A DNA stretch of 64,000 nucleotides from Ailurus styani (taxonomy: Eukaryota > Chordata > Mammalia > Carnivora > Ailuridae), in the NCBI GenBank assembly GCA_002007465.1, contig LNAC01000688.1:526448-590447 (forward strand), written 5' to 3'. A program made the translations under genes and the position numbers. The notes beneath the pieces were generated by a model. It was not told the origin of the DNA. It made no database searches and saw only the letters and a program-made list of their open reading frames with translations. Positions 11,132-61,600 of the stretch are shown here, in pieces (position 1 is the stretch's first letter; each line of letters starts with the position of its first letter).

Positions 11132-11959
11132 AGACTCTTGTCATTTTAACTTGAAGGGGTTCCTTTAATAATTATTGTAGGGCAGGTCTAGTGGGAATAA
11201 ACTCCTTCGGCATTTATTTACATGGAAATGTCTTAATTTCCTCATTTTATGAAGTAAAGTTTTGCTAGTATTATGGTTGACAGATTTTTTCTTTATCTTT
11301 TAGGCTTTAATTATATCATCCCACAGCCTTCTGGCATTCCAGATTTCTGCTAAGAAATTCACTAAAAATTTTATTGAGGATCGCCTGTACATGATGAGTC
11401 ACCTGCTCCTGCAGCTTTCAAGACTCTCTGTCTTTCACTTCGACAGTTTGGTTGTAAAGTGTCTTGATGTAGGATTTTTAAATTTTTTCCTTTTGGAGTT
11501 CATTAAAATTCTTGTACTTGTATATCCATGTCTCCCTTCAAATTTTGGAAATTTGGGCCATTACTTCCTTAAATAAATTCTCAGCCCCTTTCTTCTCCTT
11601 TTGGAGCTCCCATAATGCAAACGTTAGTCTATTTTTTGATGCCCCATAAGTTCCCTAGATTCCGTAACTTTCTTCCATTCTTTTTTTTTTTCTTTTCCCT
11701 CTATGGACTCAATAATTTCAAACGATCCATTTTTAAGTTAATTGGTTATTTCTTGTCTGCCCAAGTCTGTTGGGTCCCTCTTAAATATTTCAAATCATTT
11801 ATTGCATTTTTTAGCTTCAGAATCTTTTTTATATTTTATATCATTTTCTTTATATTCTCATTTTGCTTATACATCATTCTCCAGATTTCCTTTAGTTACT
11901 TTTCTGTGTTTCCCTTTAGCTTTTTGAGCATATTTAAGAGTGGCGTTTTAAAGTATTTG

Positions 11960-12059
11960 TCCAATAAGTCTGAATCCTATGGATCTTTGATCAGTTTCTG
12001 GAGATTTTTTTTCCTATTTATAAGCTTGGTGATCTTTTGTTTGAAAATTGGCCATAAAA

Positions 12060-12117
<58 letters not shown>

Positions 12118-12374
12118 CTGATACACACATCTTTGCAGATTGGCTCCATGCAATGGAGTATCACTAATCAGCCCATCAAGAGGGCCAAACTTCTTTTCAG
12201 GATTTTCTGGACATGGATCTTTTCTATGTCTGTGTGTGTGTTTTTCTTTCCCAATTCACTTATACACACAATTGCTTTTAAATTTTTTAGTTTCCTTGAG
12301 TCTCTCCCTGCTTCTTCTCCACAACTTAGATGTTCTATGTGTCCCTCTGTTTGAAGGCTCTTACTCTCAGGCTC
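11960..12374 (+). repeat. Inverted duplication, left (source) arm
   Basis: This 415-bp stretch reappears in reverse complement at 13901-14307. By eye the unique part (12123-12374) is identical in both arms. Differences are confined to the length and edges of the CA tract. The left arm continues smoothly into antisense L1 on both sides, so it is the likely source. Confidence 0.93.
12063..12118. repeat. (CA)n microsatellite
   Basis: About 25 CA units with one GC interruption near the right end. It lies inside the left arm of the inverted duplication, and its mirror copy is at 14157-14206. Confidence 0.95.
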
Positions 12375-12830
12375 CTATGGGTCTCTAATCTTCTTGCATA
12401 TTTCATATGCTGCAACACCTTCCACTTCTTTCAATGGCTTTCAACTTGATATCCAAACCATGCTCCCATTCTTATCTGAGCTCCAAGTCAGGTGCAACAG
12501 AAACTAAGCAACCCCACTGGAAGCAAGTTCTATTCCTTTCCTTCCTTGTTAAGGGAGAAACATGCAATTGGATGACTTTCTCCCAAAAGCAGCAGCTGTA
12601 TTGCTCTAAGGAGGGGATGAAACAAGAGTGAGAAAATACCACACAATTTCTTACTACTCTGTGTGTGTGTGTGTTCTTGATTGAGACTTCATTTGGCTGC
12701 TTCAGAACCTTGACCATTTTCTAGAGTTTCCATAAAGCTATTTCCACTAGTGTTTTGTTATTTACTTGATATTTCCATATGGGGATAGGAGTCTGCAGCT
12801 TTATAGTCTGCCATCTTGCTAATATCATTC

Positions 12831-13415
12831 TCCTAGCACAAATTACTTCTGAAAGGATAGAAGACCTTGGGAAATGAAAGGCCCATCTTCCAAATTGGCA
12901 AAAGACAGACTCAGCTAGTTCCACTTTTTGTTGGTAACAGAAAGAATTTATGATTTCCCATATGGCTTATAGTGGAGTAAAATAGAAGGGGCAAACTCTC
13001 TTGGATTAAAAGAAAAAGAAAAGAAGAGCTAGCACTTCATGTTTTTTTTAGGAACTTCAAAAAGAAAAACAAGTGGATCTCTTCACGCTTCTGATGTAGA
13101 ATGTAAGTTTAAGTTGTTGCAGGTATAAGAATACTTATCATAAAATAATTTATACAATTTAATAGAAAAAATAGAATACATTAGGAAGTAAAATTAATGA
13201 TGATATTTATATTGGTTCTGGTATATGATTGAATGGGATTCTCATTCACTGAGAGAGGCTATTTAAGTTGATATAAACTTTTCTGGGAAAAATTTTACAA
13301 TAGAGAACATCATCTAGTGGGTTATTCATTCATTCATTCATTCAATATTTCCTGATTTCCTACTGTAAGTTAGGCTCTTTGAATAGCAAGTAGAAATGAA
13401 TGGTCTCCACATTAT
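12831..13415. other. Unique sequence
   Basis: No recognised repeat apart from a short (CATT)n run at 13325-13346 and no convincing exon. Confidence 0.5.
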
Positions 13416-13430
13416 CCTTATACATCTTCT

Positions 13431-13840
13431 TCTTTTTAAAATATTTATTTATTGGGCACCTGGGTGGCTCAGTGGGTTAAGGCCTCTGCCTTCGGCTCAG
13501 GTCATGATCCCAGGGTCCTGGGATCGAGGCCCACATCGGGCTCTCTGCTCAGCAGGGAGCCTGCTTCCTCCTCTCTCTCTGCCTGCCTCTCTGCCTACTT
13601 GTAATCTCTCTCTGTGTGTCATATAAATAAATAAAATCTTTAAAAAAAATAAAAAAATAAAGATTTATTTATTTATTAGAGAGAGAGTAGGTGTGGAGTG
13701 AAGAGGAAGAGAGAATCTTAAGTAAACTCCTTGCTAAGCATGGAGCCCAATGCAGGGCTGGATCTCACAACACCGAGACCATGATCTGAGCTGAAACCAG
13801 GAGTCTGATGTTTAATGGACTGTGCCACCCAGGTGCCCCT
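13431..13840 (-). mobile_element. Older CAN-SINE, antisense, hosting a younger SINE
   Basis: T-rich tail at 13431-13453, then the inserted plus-strand SINE, then the SINE body from about 13650: GATTTATTTATTTATTAGAG to GTGCCACCCAGGTGCCCC. An exact 15-bp target duplication CCTTATACATCTTCT frames the whole unit at 13416-13430 and 13841-13855. Confidence 0.92.
13454..13648 (+). mobile_element. Young CAN-SINE inserted in another SINE's tail
   Basis: Complete copy: GGGCACCTGGGTGGCTCAGT, GGGTTAAGGCCTCTGCCTTC, GGTCATGATCCCAGGGTC, CT body, then AAATAAATAAAATCTTTAAA. It lies opposite in orientation to its host SINE and in the host's A/T tail, a typical L1-endonuclease target. Confidence 0.95.
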
Positions 13841-13861
13841 CCTTATACATCTTCTATGTAT

Positions 13862-13892
13862 GAAATATATATATATATATATCCAAATATAT
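13862..13892 (+). repeat. AT-rich palindrome, left half
   Basis: GAA, nine AT dinucleotides, then CCAAATATAT. Its reverse complement, differing by one A, sits at 14307-14336. Between the halves lies the inverted copy of 11960-12374. Joined directly, the halves would form an almost perfect AT-rich palindrome of about 60 bp. Confidence 0.9.
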
Positions 13893-13900
13893 AAGAGTAA

Positions 13901-14157
13901 GAGCCTGAGAGTAAGAGCCTTCAAACAGAGGGACACATAGAACATCTAAGTTGTGGAGAAGAAGCAGGGAGAGACTCAAGGAAACTAAAAAATTTAAAAG
14001 CAATTGTGTGTATAAGTGAATTGGGAAAGAAAAACACACACACAGACATAGAAAAGATCCATGTCCAGAAAATCCTGAAAAGAAGTTTGGCCCTCTTGAT
14101 GGGCTGATTAGTGATACTCCATTGCATGGAGCCAATCTGCAAAGATGTGTGTATCAG

Positions 14158-14208
<51 letters not shown>

Positions 14209-14307
14209 TTTATGGCCAATTTTCAAACAAAAGATCACCAAGCTTATAAATAGGAAAAAAAATCTCCAGAAACTGATCAAAGATCCATAGGATTCAGACT
14301 TATTGGA
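13901..14307 (-). repeat. Inverted duplication, right (inserted) arm
   Basis: Reverse complement of 11960-12374, 407 bp. The last base, 14307, is shared with the right palindrome half. At the left junction, 13893-13905 (AAGAGTAAGAGCC) is an extra partial copy of the adjacent 13907-13919 text, suggesting template slippage. There is no poly-A tail and no direct target duplication, so it is not a retrotransposed copy. Confidence 0.93.
14157..14206. repeat. (GT)n microsatellite, mirror of the CA tract
   Basis: About 24 GT units with a GC interruption at the left end, matching the interruption in the source tract at 12063-12118. Confidence 0.95.
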
Positions 14308-14336
14308 TATATTTGGATATATATATATATATATTC
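14307..14336 (-). repeat. AT-rich palindrome, right half
   Basis: ATATATTTGG, nine AT dinucleotides, TC: the inverted partner of 13862-13892 and directly adjacent to the inserted arm. Confidence 0.9.
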
Positions 14337-14339
14337 TTA

Positions 14340-16309
14340 TATATAACAACCACCGATTAAGTATAAAACTTACAACTGTGATGTATAAAATGATGGAAAG
14401 ATATGCAACAGCAAGAAAGTATAGACTTGGAGTAATTTCTCCCTAAGTTGGGAGATCAAGGAAAGATTCCTTGAGAAAACATTGTTTGAACTAAGCTCTA
14501 AAAGAGGAATAATAATTAAGTAACAAGGGAAAGGAAGAATATAGATAAAGGAATAGTAGAGTCAAAAGTTCTAAGAGAAAACAAAACAGCACATTGAAAT
14601 ATTTTAAAGTACAGAGTGACTGGATAGCATAGAATAGGAGTTGGAGGAGTTGTGATAGATGAGACCAAAATAGTCAGGATGTCTGACTATTGTCTGATTG
14701 TCAGACAGATTGACTATTGTCAGGTTGTCTGATCCATTATGAATTATGACATTTATCTTAAGGCAAATAATTGAAAGATTTTAAATGAGAAAGAAAGATA
14801 AATGTAAGGGTTGGAATGGACTAAACATAATTAAATATCCATTTGGTAAACACTGGCAACTAGATGTAAAATGGATTTAATGAGATGAATAGTTAATGTA
14901 TAAAAACAAAAGAAGTCTGCCTCAGTCTAAATGATACTGACTGGTGACTTAGAAGGGATGGGAAAGGTGGAAATAGAAAAAAAGTAGACATATTATAAAA
15001 GATGTGTAAAAGGTAAAATGAAGACCTGGAGCTATTAAAAAGCTCCCATAATTCCCAGGGTAATTCCTAGGTTTTGATTTGCACTACTGGTTAGTTGATG
15101 CTGCCAATTATTTAGGTAGTGATGTGAATAAGTACCTGGTTGGGAGGAAAAGGTTTTCATGTTTTACATTTGGGGAACAACAGATGAGAGTAATGTATTC
15201 ATGAGAGTTCCTTTTCTTCCTGAGCAACTAAGAAAACTGTCTTTCCCAGTACATGAAGATCTAAGAAATTCCAGTTCTGGCCAACAAAATATGGGCAGAT
15301 GTAAAATAATTATTTCTATTTTTGGTGCCTGTCCTCTGTGATCTCCTGCTCTAACTCTTTTTTCTCATGCACAAATTTGGAAGACTGACTGAAAATTAGC
15401 AGAGGAACATTTTGGAAGGAGACTGAATCCCTAAGATATTACTTGGAAAATATCTGACTAATCTTTATCAAACCTCACCTGAGCTATGAATAGACATTTA
15501 TAATATTAAGTGGTTATGATGTCTGAGTATATTTGTTACCTTATCATTTGCATAGAAGGACCTTCAAGACATTCTTATCTTATATGTACAAAATGTACTT
15601 ATCAATGGAGAAATTAAGGCTGAAAAAATATTTGGGAGTTGTCTGTATGGAAATAATAATTAAAATTATAATTTCAGATGGAATTGCCTGGTAAGGAACT
15701 AAAGAGTAAAAATGAAATAATTTGTTTTCAATAATGTTGAAAGCTATTAAAAAAGCAAGTGAGAATGAAATATAAAAAATATGCATTATGTTTTTGGAAA
15801 AGCGGACAATTGGTGATCTTTGAAAAAGCTATCACTACCTTATAATTCGGACAAAAGCAAATTGGAGTAGGTCAAGAAGTTAAATGTGATAAAATAGAGA
15901 CTGTACAGACAATGTTCAATGAATTTTGACCTTAAAGGGAATTCTGTTTGTCACATAATAAGAGAACTAAATAGGTTTAAATATTGAATATTTAAAGTGA
16001 ATGCAAAAAACATAAAAGGGACAGTCAATATTTTAGTTTCTTGAGAAGACAGGAAGTGATGATATCCCAAGGCATTGTGGAGGAATTGACCTTGGATGTA
16101 AGAAAGAACAACTCTTCCATTGTAACCAAAAGAAAAGAGGACAATCAGCAAAGCATGAATCTATCAGTAGGCTAGTCATTAAAAACATGGAAGATGTACT
16201 TTTTTCCTCTGTGCTTTGGAGGTATGGACATTTGCATAAGGGTGGGAAGAGAAACATGATGAAGACCCTGAAAACAGAGAAACAGTATATTGACAGTGAA
16301 CGTGTGGCT
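14340..16309. other. Mostly unique AT-rich sequence
   Basis: The text at about 14450-14640 (AAAGATTCCTTGAGAAAACA and following) recalls a mammal-wide repeat consensus, but I cannot assign the family. 14680-14735 has short direct and inverted copies of TGTCTGA/GACTATTGTC. No exon was recognised, and the 60-75-codon frames lack splice context. Confidence 0.45.
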
Positions 16310-47549: not shown

Positions 47550-47745
47550 GGTTAAAGATTTTTTACATAATGTATCATTTAATCTTTGTAGCCATCCCAT
47601 TAGATAAACATTTTTAACTGCATTTACAGATGAGGAGCAGAAGAATAAGAAGGTAAAGTGGGCGCCTGGGTGGCTCAGTGGGTTAAAGAAGGTAAAGTAA
47701 CTTCTGCAAGGTCAGACAGTTAAGAAGTGTCAGAGGGAAGATTTA
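47550..47745 (-). mobile_element. MIR, antisense, interrupted by a SINE head
   Basis: TGTATCATTTAATCTTTGTA, TTTACAGATGAGGAGCAGAA and, after the small insertion, AAGTAACTTCTGCAAGGTCA, GACAGTTAAGAAGTGTCAGA follow antisense MIR order. Confidence 0.72.
47660..47685 (+). mobile_element. 26-bp SINE head without body or tail
   Basis: GGGCGCCTGGGTGGCTCAGT followed by GGGTTA only. An exact 13-bp flank duplication AAGAAGGTAAAGT lies at 47647-47659 and 47686-47698. It carries the A-box region of the young SINE but no B box, CT body or A-rich tail. Confidence 0.9.
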
Positions 47746-48112
47746 TTTTTTTNNNNNNNNNNNNNNNNNNNNNNNNNNNNNNNNNNNNNNNNNNNNNNNN
47801 NNNNNNNNNNNNNNNNNNNNNNNNNNNNNNNNNNNNNNNNNNNNNNNNNNNNNNNNNNNNNNNNNNNNNNNNNNNNNNNNNNNNNNNNNNNNNNNNNNNN
47901 NNNNNNNNNNNNNNNNNNNNNNNNNNNNNNNNNNNNNNNNNNNNNNNNNNNNNNNNNNNNNNNNNNNNNNNNNNNNNNNNNNNNNNNNNNNNNNNNNNNN
48001 NNNNNNNNNNNNNNNNNCAGAGAGCCCGATGCGGGCCTCGATCCCAGGACCCTGAGATCATGACCTGAGCCGAAAGCAGAGGCTTTAACCCACTGAGCCA
48101 CCCAGGCGCCCT
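47746..48112 (-). mobile_element. CAN-SINE, antisense, containing an assembly gap
   Basis: Starts with AGATTTATTTTTTT, then Ns from 47753 to 48017, then CAGAGAGCCCGATGCGGGCC to GAGCCACCCAGGCGCCCT. The readable half is near-identical to young copies. Frames crossing the Ns are meaningless. Confidence 0.9.
47753..48017. other. Assembly gap (265 N)
   Basis: A run of N inside the antisense SINE. The flanks suggest the missing part includes the SINE tail half and possibly more. Confidence 0.99.
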
Positions 48113-54425: not shown

Positions 54426-57400
54426 CAATGGCACTAAGTTCATATCATTCAACAGTTTCCCTGGATGTAAATGGGCGAAATGTCCCAATCAAAAGATACA
54501 GCGTATCAGAACCTATTTAAAAAAAACCCACAAGAGACATCTATATGCTGTCCACAAGACACTCATTTTAGCTCCAACGACACCTCCAGAATTAAAATGT
54601 GGGGGTAGAAAACAATTTACCATGCTAATAGACATCAAAAGAAAGTGGGAGTGGCAAACTTTATATCAGATAAATTAGATTTTGAGCCAAAGACTATAAT
54701 AAGAGATGAGGAAGAACACTATATTACATGTACAGGGTTGGTCTAAGAAGAAGAATTTTAAGTATCTCTGCCCCTAACATGGGAGCAGCCAATTATATAA
54801 ACCAGTTAATAACAAAATAAAAAAAAGGGACAATAATTACAATAATAGTAGGGGACTTTAATAACTCCCTCACTAAAATGGACAAGTCATCTAAGCAAAT
54901 GATCAGCAAGGAAATAAAGGCTTTAAATTACATACTAGACCAGATGGACATCACAGATATATTCAGAACATTCCATCCCAAAGCAACAGAATACACATTC
55001 TTCTCTAGTGTACATGGAACATTCTCCAGAATAAATCACATCCTGGGTCACAAATCAGGTCTCAACCAGTACCAAAAGATTGGGATCATTCCTTGCATAT
55101 TTTCAGATCGCAGTGCTTTGAAACTAGAACTCAACCACAAGAGGAAAGTTGGAAAGAACTTAAATACCTGGAGACTAAAGAGCATCCTACTAAAGAATGA
55201 ATGGGTCAAACATTAAGTTAAAGAAGAATTTTTAAAAAATCATGGAATCAAATGAAAATGAAAACACAACTGTTAAAAAAAAGAAAAAAAAAAGAAAACA
55301 CAACTGTTCAGAATCTGTGGGATACAGCAAAGGTGGTCCTAAGTGGAAAGTATATAGCAATACAAGCCTTTCTCTAGAAACAAGAAAGGTCTCAAATACA
55401 CAGCCTAACCCTACACCTAAAGAAACTGGAGAAAGAACAGCAAAGAAAGCCTAAACCTAGCAGGTGAAGAGAAATAATAAAGATCAGAGCAGAAATCAAT
55501 GAAATAGAAACCAAAAGAACAGTAGAACAGGTCAACAAAACCAGAAGCTTGTTCTTTGAAATAATTAATAAGATTGATAAACCCCTGGCCAGACTTATCC
55601 AAAAGAGAAAGGACCCAAATTAATAAAATCATGAAAGAATGAGGAGAAATCACAGCCATCACCAAAGAAATACAAACAATTATAAGAACATATTATGAGC
55701 AACTATATGCCAGCAAATTTGACAATCTGGAAGAAATGGATGCATTCCTAGAGACATATAAATTACCAAAGCTGAAAGAGTAAGAAATAAAAAAAAACTG
55801 AGTAGACCCATAACCAGTAAAGGGATGGAAGCAGTCATCAAAAATTTCCCAACAAACAAGAGTCTAGGGCCAGACAGTTTCTCAGGAGAATCCTACCAAA
55901 CATTTAAAGAAGAATTAATACCTATTCTCCTGAAACTGTTCCAAAAAAATAGAAATGGAAGGAAAACTTCCAAACTAATTTTATGAGGCCAGAATTACAT
56001 TGATCCCAAAACCAGATAAGGACCCCATCAAAAGGGAGAATTACAGACCAATATCCTAAATTATCACCAAAATACTAGCCAATAGGATCCAACAATACAT
56101 TAAAAGAATTATTCACCACGACCAAGGGGGATTTATTCCTGGGCTGCAAGGTTGGGTCAACATCCCCCAATCAATCAATGTAATACAATACATTAAGAAA
56201 AAAAAGAACAAGAACCATATGATTTTCTCAATAGACGCTGAAAAAGCATTTGACAAGGTACAGCATCCATTCTTGATCAAAACTCTTCACAGTGTAGGCA
56301 TCAAGAGTACATACCTCAATATCATCAAAGTCATTTATGAAAAACCCACAGCGAATATCATTCTCAATGGAGAAAAACTGAAAGCTTTCCCCTAAGGTCA
56401 GGAACACGACAGGGATGTCCACTATCACCACTGCTTTTCAACATAGTAGTAGAAGTCCTAGCCTCAGCAGACAACAAAAAGAAATAAAAGGCATCCAAAT
56501 CAGCAAAGAAGAAGTCAAACTCTCACTCTTTGCCGATGATATGATACTTTATGTGGAAAACCCAGCAGACCCCACTCCAAAACTGCTAGAACTCATACAG
56601 GAATTCAGTAAAGTGTCAGGATACAGAATCAATACACAGAAATCACTTGCATTTCTATACACCAACAAGACAGAAGAAAGAGAAATTAAGGAGTTGATCC
56701 CATTTACAATTGCACCCAATACTATAAGCTATCTAGGGATAAACCTAACCAAAGAGGCAAATAATCTATACTCAGAAAACTATAAAGTACTCATGAAAGA
56801 AATGAGGAAGACAGAGAAATGGAAAAAAGTTCCATGCTCATGGCTGGGAAGAACAAATATTGTGAAAATGTCTATGCTACTTAGAGCAATCTACACTTAC
56901 ATTGTAACCCCTATTAAAATAACAACAAATTTTTTCAAAGACATGGAACAAATAATCCTAAAATTTATATGAAACCAAAAAAGACCCCAAATAGCCAGAA
57001 GAATTTTGAAAAAGAAAACCAAGTTGGTGGCATTACAATTCCAGACTTCAAGCTGTATTACAAAGCTGTAATCATCAAGACAGTATCATACTGGCACAAA
57101 AACAGACACATAGATCAGTGCAACAGAATAGAGGTTCCAGAAATGGATTCTCAACTCTATGGTCAACTAATCTTTGACAAAGCATGAAAGAATGTCCAAT
57201 GGAAAAAAGACAGCTTCTTCAACAAACAGTATTGGGAAAATTGGACAGCCACATGTGGAAGAATGAAACTGGATCATTTCCTTATACCGCACATGAAAAT
57301 AGATTCAAAATGGATGAAAGACCTCAATGTGAGATAATTATCCATCAAAATTCTTGAGGAGAACACAGGCAGCAATCTCTTTGATCTCAGCTGCAACAAG

Positions 57401-58239
57401 TTCTTCCTAAAAACATTGCCAAAGGCAAGGGAAGCAAGGGCAAAAATGAACTATTGGGACTTCATCAAGATAAAACGATTTTGTACAGCCAAGGAAACAG
57501 TCAACAAAACCAAAAGACAATGGACAGAATGGGAGAAGATATTTGCAAATGACATCAGATAAATGACTATTATCCAAAATCTATAAAGAACTTATCAAAC
57601 TCAACACCCAAAGAGCAAATAATCCAATCAAGAAATGGGCAGAAGACCTGAACAGACATTTCTGCAAAGAAGATATCCAAGTGGCCAAGAGAAACATGAA
57701 AAAGTGCTCAACATCATTCAGCATCAGGGAAATACAAATCAAAACCACAGTGAGATACCACCTCACACTAGTCAGAATGTCTAAAATTAACCAGTCAGGA
57801 AATGACAGGTGTTGGTGAGAATGCAGAGAAAGGGGAACCCTCCTACACTGTTGGTGGGAATGCAAGCTGGTGCAGCCACTCTGGAAAACAGTATGGAGGT
57901 TCCTCAAAAAATTGAAATATAAATTTACCCTATGACCCAGTAATCCTAGTACTGGGTATCTACCCTAAAGATACAAATATAGTAATCTGAAGGGACACAT
58001 GTACCTGAATGTTTATAGCAGCAATTCCCACAATAGCCAAACTATGGAAAGAGCCTAGATGTCCATCAACATATGAGTGGATAAAGAAGATACGGTATAT
58101 ATATACAATGGAATAATATACAGCCATCAAAAATTTGAAATCTTGCTGTTTGCAATGACATAGATGGAACTAGAGGGTATTATGCTACGTGAATAAATGA
58201 ATCAGAGGAAGAGAACTATCATATGATCTCTCTGATATG
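54426..58239 (+). pseudogene. L1 ORF2 (endonuclease-reverse transcriptase) remnant
   Basis: ORF2p normally nicks target DNA and reverse-transcribes L1 RNA. Readable blocks, in order: the N-terminus near 54426; the endonuclease end at 54878-55216 (TEYTFFSS, SRINHILGHK, SDRSALKLEL); and the RT from about 55850 (GPDSFSGESYQ). RT text near 56220-56400 leads to the catalytic FADDMILY at 56529-56552 within the 185-codon block 56415-56972. Then come [20 protein letters not shown] near 56973 and the C-terminus to about 58239. The DH of the intact endonuclease motif SxxDH reads NH, and the SDH motif reads SDR, so endonuclease catalytic residues are lost. Multiple frameshifts and stops are also present. 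Confidence 0.9.
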
Positions 58240-60014: not shown

Positions 60015-61600
60015 TTGGAAAGTGAGAATTCAGTAAAGTCTCGGGATACAAAATCAGTGTAGAGATATCTGTTGCATTTCTATACATAAATAGTGAAGCA
60101 GCAGAAAAAGAAATTAAGAAAACAATCCCTATTACAATTGCACCAAAAATAATAAAATACCTAGGAATAAACCTAACCAAAGAGGTGAAAAACCTATACT
60201 CTGAAAACTATAAAACACTGATGAAAAAATTGAAGACAACACAAAGAAATGGAAAGATATTCTATGCTTATGGATTGGAAGAAAAAATATTGCTAAAATG
60301 TGTATGCTACCCAAAGCAATTATACATTTAAGGCAATCCCTATCAAAATATCAATATCATTTCTTACAAAAGTAGAACAAAAAGTCCTAAAATTTGTGTG
60401 GAACCACAAAAGTCCCTGAATAGCCAAAGGAATATTGAAAAAGAAAAGCAAAGCTGGAGCCATCACAATTCAGCATTTCAAGTTATATTACAAAGCCATA
60501 GTAATTAAAATAGTATGGCGCTGGCACAAAAATAGACACATCCATAGAATGGAATGGAAAACACATAAATAAACCCCCAATTATATGGTTAATTATCTTC
60601 AGAAAAGCAGAAAAAAGTATCTAATGGGGAAAAGAGAGTGTCTTCAACAAATGGTGTTGGGAAAACTAGACAGCAACATGCAACAAATGAAACTGGACAA
60701 CTTTCTTACACTATTCACAAAAATAAATTCAAGATGGATGAAAGGCCTAAGAGTAAGTCTTGAAAACATAAAAGTCCTAGAGGAGAACAAAGGCAGTAAC
60801 TACTTGGCATCAGCCACAGCAAATTCTTTTAGATAATTCGCCTAAAGCAAGAGAAACACAAGCAAAAATAAACTATTGAGACTTCATCAAAATAATTCCT
60901 TCTACACAGTGAAGGAAACAATCACCAAAACTAAAAGGCCACTTATGGAATGGTAGGATATATTTTCAAATAACATATCTGATAAAGGGTTCTATGTCCA
61001 AAACATAGAAAGAACTTATACAACTCAACACCCCCTATAAACAAGTAATCCAATTAAAAAGGGGCAGAAGACATGAACAGACATATCTTCAAAGGAGACT
61101 CAAAGATGGCCAAGAGATACATGAAAATATGCTCATCATCACTCATCATTAGGGACCTATAAATCAAAACTACAATGAGATATCCTGTCATACCTTTCTG
61201 AATGGCTAAAATTAAAAGCACAAGAAACAGCAGCTGTTGGTGAGGATGTGGAGAAAAAGAAACCCTCTTGTACTGTTGATAGGAATGCAAACTGGTGCAG
61301 CCACTGTGGAAAACAGTATAGAGGTTCCTCAAAAAGTTAAAAATAGAACTACCCTATGATCCAGCAATTATACTAGTTACCAAAGAATACACAAACACTA
61401 ATTCAAAGCGATATATGCACCCCTATGTTTAAAGAAACATTATTTACAGTAGCTGAATTACAGAAGCAACCCTTCTGTCTTCAATAGATGAGTGGATAAA
61501 GAAGATATCTATATATAGATATATGTAATATATCTATTAAGGAGTGCACTTGTAATAAGCACCAGGTGATTAAAATAAAAACTTTTTTTAAAGTATTGAA
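60015..61600 (+). mobile_element. 5'-truncated carnivoran-type L1
   Basis: Starts inside the ORF2 RT (AATTCAGTAAAGTCTCGGGA), runs through CCTAGGAATAAACCTAACCA, TTATATTACAAAGCCATAGT, ACTGGTGCAGCCACTGTGGA, and ends with the short 3' UTR GAGTGCACTTGTAATAAGCA, CCAGGTGATTAAAATAAAAA. Better preserved than the flanking old L1. Frames at 60585-60836 and on the minus strand are its shadows. Confidence 0.8.

Follow-up and report, generated by a model that had tools for sequence, protein, structure and literature searches.

The 64,000-nucleotide stretch of Ailurus styani DNA analysed here (hereafter, the window) most probably carries a germline, local and inverted templated insertion that arose by microhomology-primed template switching. 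The putative insert is about 0.4 kb long, is nearly identical to a neighbouring segment in the opposite orientation, and is framed by perfect inverted AT-rich arms with short tandem scars at the junctions.

The inverted copy and its source

Self-comparison of the window and alignment of the two segments confirmed that 13901–14307 (minus strand) is the reverse complement of 11960–12374 (plus strand), with 363 of 363 bases identical outside a CA tract. The wider reverse-complement alignment covers 13898–14307 against 11960–12377. The two oppositely oriented 0.4-kb copies are separated by approximately 1.5 kb, and the template has been retained, both copies being present in the window. Over 11960–12374, identical blocks of 99 and 264 bases flank the CA tract, while the stretch between these blocks is 8 bp shorter in the copy (44 nt) than in the source (52 nt). 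The CA/TG tract of the copy (14165–14208, minus strand) also has a changed edge, reading ACATAC in place of the AATTAC of the source, a difference whose substitution count varies with gap placement.

The absence of differences in 363 bases sets a 95% upper bound of 0.8% on the divergence of the copies (rule of three). So low a bound leaves three readings: a young duplication, homogenisation of the copies, or an artefact. Such near-identity would allow the insert to be polymorphic.

With a minimum length of 70 bp and E values up to 1e-5, self-comparison of the window gave 221 matches once mirror pairs were removed, and the inverted pair 11960–12374/13901–14307 is the only one that overlaps 11500–12900. 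The best 60 of the 221 involve mostly a few recurring coordinates that belong, by eye, to one SINE family; sequence that we take to be carnivore SINE is recognisable in the window. Two further stretches of 1.5 kb (56601–58115 and 60026–61530), whose starts lie 3.4 kb apart, are 74% identical, and the reading frames at 56060–56395 and 56382–56972, just upstream of and overlapping the first of them, resemble a broken LINE-1 reverse transcriptase by eye.

When the source and its flanks were compared with the window at low stringency, only five short matches (15–31 bp, E 0.029 or weaker) were found besides the source itself and the copy. With matches so few and weak, an older repeat family could not settle the direction of copying. 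The source sequence may resemble part of an old LINE-1. A 33-base flank pattern had no match in a viral contig collection, and a 26-base source pattern had none in the genome contig collection searched, both as expected for mammalian DNA. We infer that copying ran from 11960–12374 to 13901–14307, since the tandem scars at the ends and the surrounding inverted arms occur only at the latter copy.

Palindrome arms and junctions

The insert is bordered on both sides by perfect inverted arms (29/29 bases): A(AT)9CCAAATATAT on the left (13864–13892, plus strand) and ATATATTTGG(AT)9T on the right (14307–14335, minus strand). Each arm comprises nine AT units plus CCAAATATAT (left) or its complement ATATATTTGG (right). 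A sequence-only reading of this DNA had described 13901–14307 as the reverse complement of 11960–12374, lying between the halves of an AT-rich palindrome with nine AT units each, and both parts of that description hold. Much of each arm is dinucleotide repeat and comes cheaply, since such a repeat is its own complement; the informative features are the CCAA and TTGG motifs, which sit at matching distances in the two arms, and the (AT)9 runs of equal length.

To assess how often such arms occur, we scored 1,903,200 position pairs lying 400–429 bp apart by gapless comparison (match +1, mismatch −3). Only 24 pairs scored at least 12: nine correspond to this locus (best 29), and the remaining 15 to one SINE pair at 47685/48086 beside an assembly gap (best 26). 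The window holds four AT runs of at least six units, two being the arms, and four uninterrupted palindromes (spacer up to 12) scoring at least 12, with a best score of 15; the palindrome scan of the window returned none with a score of 18 or more. The arms are not a chance occurrence in this window.

The left arm begins just past the right-hand member of the 16-bp direct repeats TCCTTATACATCTTCT (13415–13430 and 13840–13855) that flank an apparent reverse-oriented SINE, judged by eye at 13415–13855 and interrupted by a second SINE (about 13454–13661). At some distance, a 26-bp piece resembling the head of the local SINE (47660–47685) lies between 13-bp direct repeats AAGAAGGTAAAGT (47647–47659 and 47686–47698), close to a gap of 265 Ns (47753–48017) beyond which SINE sequence in the opposite orientation starts. 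A SINE head with neither body nor tail would be an unusual product of retrotransposition; an assembly fault or an internal deletion may lie behind it.

At the left junction, Tandem Repeats Finder detected a 14-bp tandem duplication, consisting of 1.9 copies of AGAGTAAGAGCCTG (13894–13920, plus strand). In the source, AGAGTAAGAGCC occurs once, and GAGCC is found twice, 14 bases apart, at the spot matching the left junction. A polymerase slipping back at GAGCC would therefore leave the left tandem, and we read the duplication, from its sequence, as such a backward slip on the template. At the right junction, TTGGATATAT is doubled (14303–14322, plus strand), with copies at 14303–14312 and 14313–14322. 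The order here is TTGGA (14303–14307), which ends the source copy, then TATAT, and then the arm's own TTGGATATAT at its inner end. This TTGGA, with which the copying of the source ends, has its complement, TCCAA, in the left arm. The 5-mer is itself contained in the arm; in a frequency test picked after the sequence had been seen, a random 5-mer from the window matched the inner 15 nt with a frequency of 0.027 and 33 nt of the arm with a frequency of 0.037. These frequencies hint that TTGGA served as microhomology, but its partner could also have been a right arm that already existed.

The insert and the right arm together are enclosed by a perfect 8-bp direct repeat, ATATATAA, at 13887–13894 and 14339–14346 (both plus strand). 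In this AT-rich setting, the repeat would amount to a target-site duplication of the length expected for LINE-1 (at least 5 bp) only if the right arm were counted as part of the insert. The dinucleotides AT, AA and TC would all give a match on the right side, and one of them follows ATATAT in 46 of 115 instances outside the locus (61/132 with the locus included), so that in such AT-rich DNA the repeat is weak evidence. By eye, no poly-A tail is seen at either end of the insert, in agreement with the sequence-only reading; its further statement that the insert lacks a direct target duplication needs qualifying in view of the 8-bp repeat, with the weight just given. The left 14-bp tandem, the doubled TTGGATATAT and the 8-bp repeat are features absent from that reading.

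How much homology the switch points share depends on which ancestral site is assumed: about 1 bp in one case, TAA (3) and TTGGA (5) in the other. With homologies this short in DNA of low complexity, part of the junction parse may be chance; the slips are read from a single sequence.

Template switching and the origin of the second arm

The near-identity of the copies, their orientation, the retained local template, the lack of poly-A and the short-homology junctions with slips all point to template-switching DNA synthesis and not to retrotransposition. According to the mechanism we propose, a nascent strand that had stalled, or a 3′ DNA end, in the AT-rich, hairpin-prone stretch would have paired over a few bases with a template 1.5–2.4 kb away. 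Approximately 410 nt of this template would then have been copied in inverted orientation, with one 14-nt backward slip near one end, before the new strand was joined back at the AT-rich site. The chemistry would be microhomology-mediated template switching (MMBIR/FoSTeS); Pol-theta-type end joining would fit less easily because the copy is so long. Direct and inverted templated insertions have been attributed to snap-back replication and to repeated realignment within AT-rich regions, with Pol theta insertions usually spanning 3–10 nt and the helicase domain suppressing snap-back (PMC9962433). Given this usual length and the suppressed snap-back, a replication-type switch is the better match for a copy of 0.4 kb. 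The earlier suggestion of a palindrome broken at its centre and repaired by inverted copying of a nearby template is upheld as regards a templated inverted insertion, not retrotransposition, while the prior palindrome and its central break become one possible route.

Two explanations of a different kind have to be weighed against template switching. It is unlikely that the structure is an assembly or library artefact, that is, a chimeric join rather than a genomic insertion. Assemblers usually misjoin at long exact overlaps, which these junctions lack, their homology being at most about 5 bp plus small slips; the artefact is less likely for this reason, and the copies also differ in the CA tract and at the tract edge. 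What speaks for it is the near-perfect identity of the two copies, together with weak places in the assembly such as the gap of 265 Ns (47753–48017) near the odd SINE fragment. Less probable still is an RNA-templated insertion, either by LINE-1 (class 1) or as an RNA patch (class 2 TSIP). Although the insert and right arm are flanked by an 8-bp direct repeat, and class 2 events are described as lacking poly-A and showing microhomology, the TSIP sources described in the same report are distant, whereas the source here is local (PMC5110952). In addition, no poly-A tail was seen, and the right palindrome arm, although foreign to the source, would lie between the two members of the repeat; on these two grounds, a LINE-1 target duplication was rejected as the explanation for the 8-bp repeat.

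Within template switching, a second arm that already existed and one made by fold-back in the same event are about equally plausible. A prior AT-rich palindrome may have extruded a hairpin or cruciform, broken at its tip and been patched with an inverted local copy. Consistent with this, the insert is framed by perfect 29-bp arms, and one way of joining them yields a 25-pair hairpin of −18.5 kcal/mol (DNA parameters). The route also takes few steps, with two junctions of about 1 bp homology, and resembles the insertions described at the human Xq27.1 palindrome, each of which has at least one breakpoint near the palindrome centre (PMC6489244). Its cost is that such palindromes are rare here, the best score in the window being 15 (spacer up to 12), and that two features, the match of TTGGA at the exit and, at the left junction, the AA of ATATATAA, must be put down to coincidence.

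It is also possible that only a single arm was originally present, the palindrome being the product and not the cause. The strand would have left at ...CCAAATATATAA and copied the source, after which its TTGGA end would have folded back on TCCAA of the strand's own left arm. Copying of that arm with one 10-nt slip would have produced the right arm, and rejoining would have taken place at ATATATAA. Fold-back accounts for the exit at TTGGA, whose complement TCCAA lies in the left arm, as well as for AA at the left junction; moreover, the TAA of the left junction is present in the source as GTAAGAG, and the 8-bp direct repeat yields a simple empty site. Fold-back has a precedent in inverted insertions documented in yeast (PMC11724301), and stem-loop synthesis is documented for human Pol theta in vitro (PMC11292364). 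However, this route needs the extra 10-nt slip, one lost T and two unexplained bases, TT (14337–14338), before the return point, and the direct repeat that supports it is weak, given the 46/115 comparable ATATAT cases outside the locus. The empty site that this route predicts forms a weak fold (−2.3 kcal/mol), so no special fragility is expected there, and the yeast fold-back copies described are mostly 5–34 bp (PMC11724301).

Fold-back leads to a tentative reading of the whole event as one continuous polymerase excursion, in which 0.4 kb was copied from about 2 kb away and then the strand's own starting arm by fold-back. If so, an AT-rich inverted repeat arose in one step around a new spacer, and the locus would be a germline fossil of the birth of spaced AT-rich inverted repeats, with slips near the switch points preserved.

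The pre-existing palindrome and the fold-back predict different empty alleles. The former predicts joined arms, ...GAAA(AT)n CCAAA(TA)n TTTGG (AT)n TTCTTATATATAACAACC..., and the latter a single arm, ...GAAA(AT)n CCAAATATATAACAACC.... Should the empty allele show GAAA and TTCTT joined by nothing but a longer (AT)n array, insertion into a simple microsatellite would be indicated instead. At this locus, AT-rich palindromes as the cause of templated insertions can be tested against AT-rich palindromes as their product. Since template and product are both nearly unchanged, this one locus suffices for reading both slips and switch points, and its value lies in a complete record and a test of cause versus product rather than in a new mechanism: germline templated insertions and palindrome-centre insertions are already described in humans.

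Comparison with known systems

Human palindromic AT-rich repeats (PATRRs) are several hundred base pairs long. As in the locus studied here, an AT-rich palindrome is tied to rearrangement in the PATRRs, but these mediate recurrent translocations, whereas here there is one small local insertion between 29-bp arms (PMC4255720, PMC7999016).

A further comparison is with human germline MMBIR-type templated insertions (MMB-TI), for which 103 and 99 templated insertions of at least 25 bp were reported in fibroblasts from two donors, a catalogue that includes complex multi-template events and classes in quasi-palindromes (PMC8421209). The shared features are a nearby template, reverse copying, putative junction microhomology, multi-template events and the quasi-palindrome classes. 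The search described in that study considered templates within about 100 bp, whereas the template here lies 1.5–2.4 kb away, the copy is 0.4 kb long and inverted arms surround it (PMC8421209). Template-switch loci of great apes are reported to be enriched for AT-rich sequence (PMC7954356).

In the yeast fold-back (PMC11724301) and Pol theta stem-loop (PMC11292364) systems, a 3′ end folds on itself and its own flank is copied in inverted orientation, which resembles only the account in which the second arm was made during the event. For human Pol theta, stem-loop synthesis is described as starting from two terminal base pairs (PMC11292364). The yeast copies, as described, are mostly 5–34 bp and arise without a 0.4-kb intermediate template such as that used here (PMC11724301).

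Insertions at the 180-bp palindrome of Xq27.1 occur in several human conditions, the case described in the report having 1 and 2 bp of homology (PMC6489244). As here, duplicated DNA lies at a palindrome centre, and the Xq27.1 homology of 1–2 bp is similarly short. At Xq27.1, however, a 180-bp palindrome is known to have existed beforehand and received a 105-kb insert in direct orientation from another locus (PMC6489244), whereas the present insert is a local, inverted segment of 0.4 kb, and a prior palindrome belongs only to the account in which both arms preceded the insertion.
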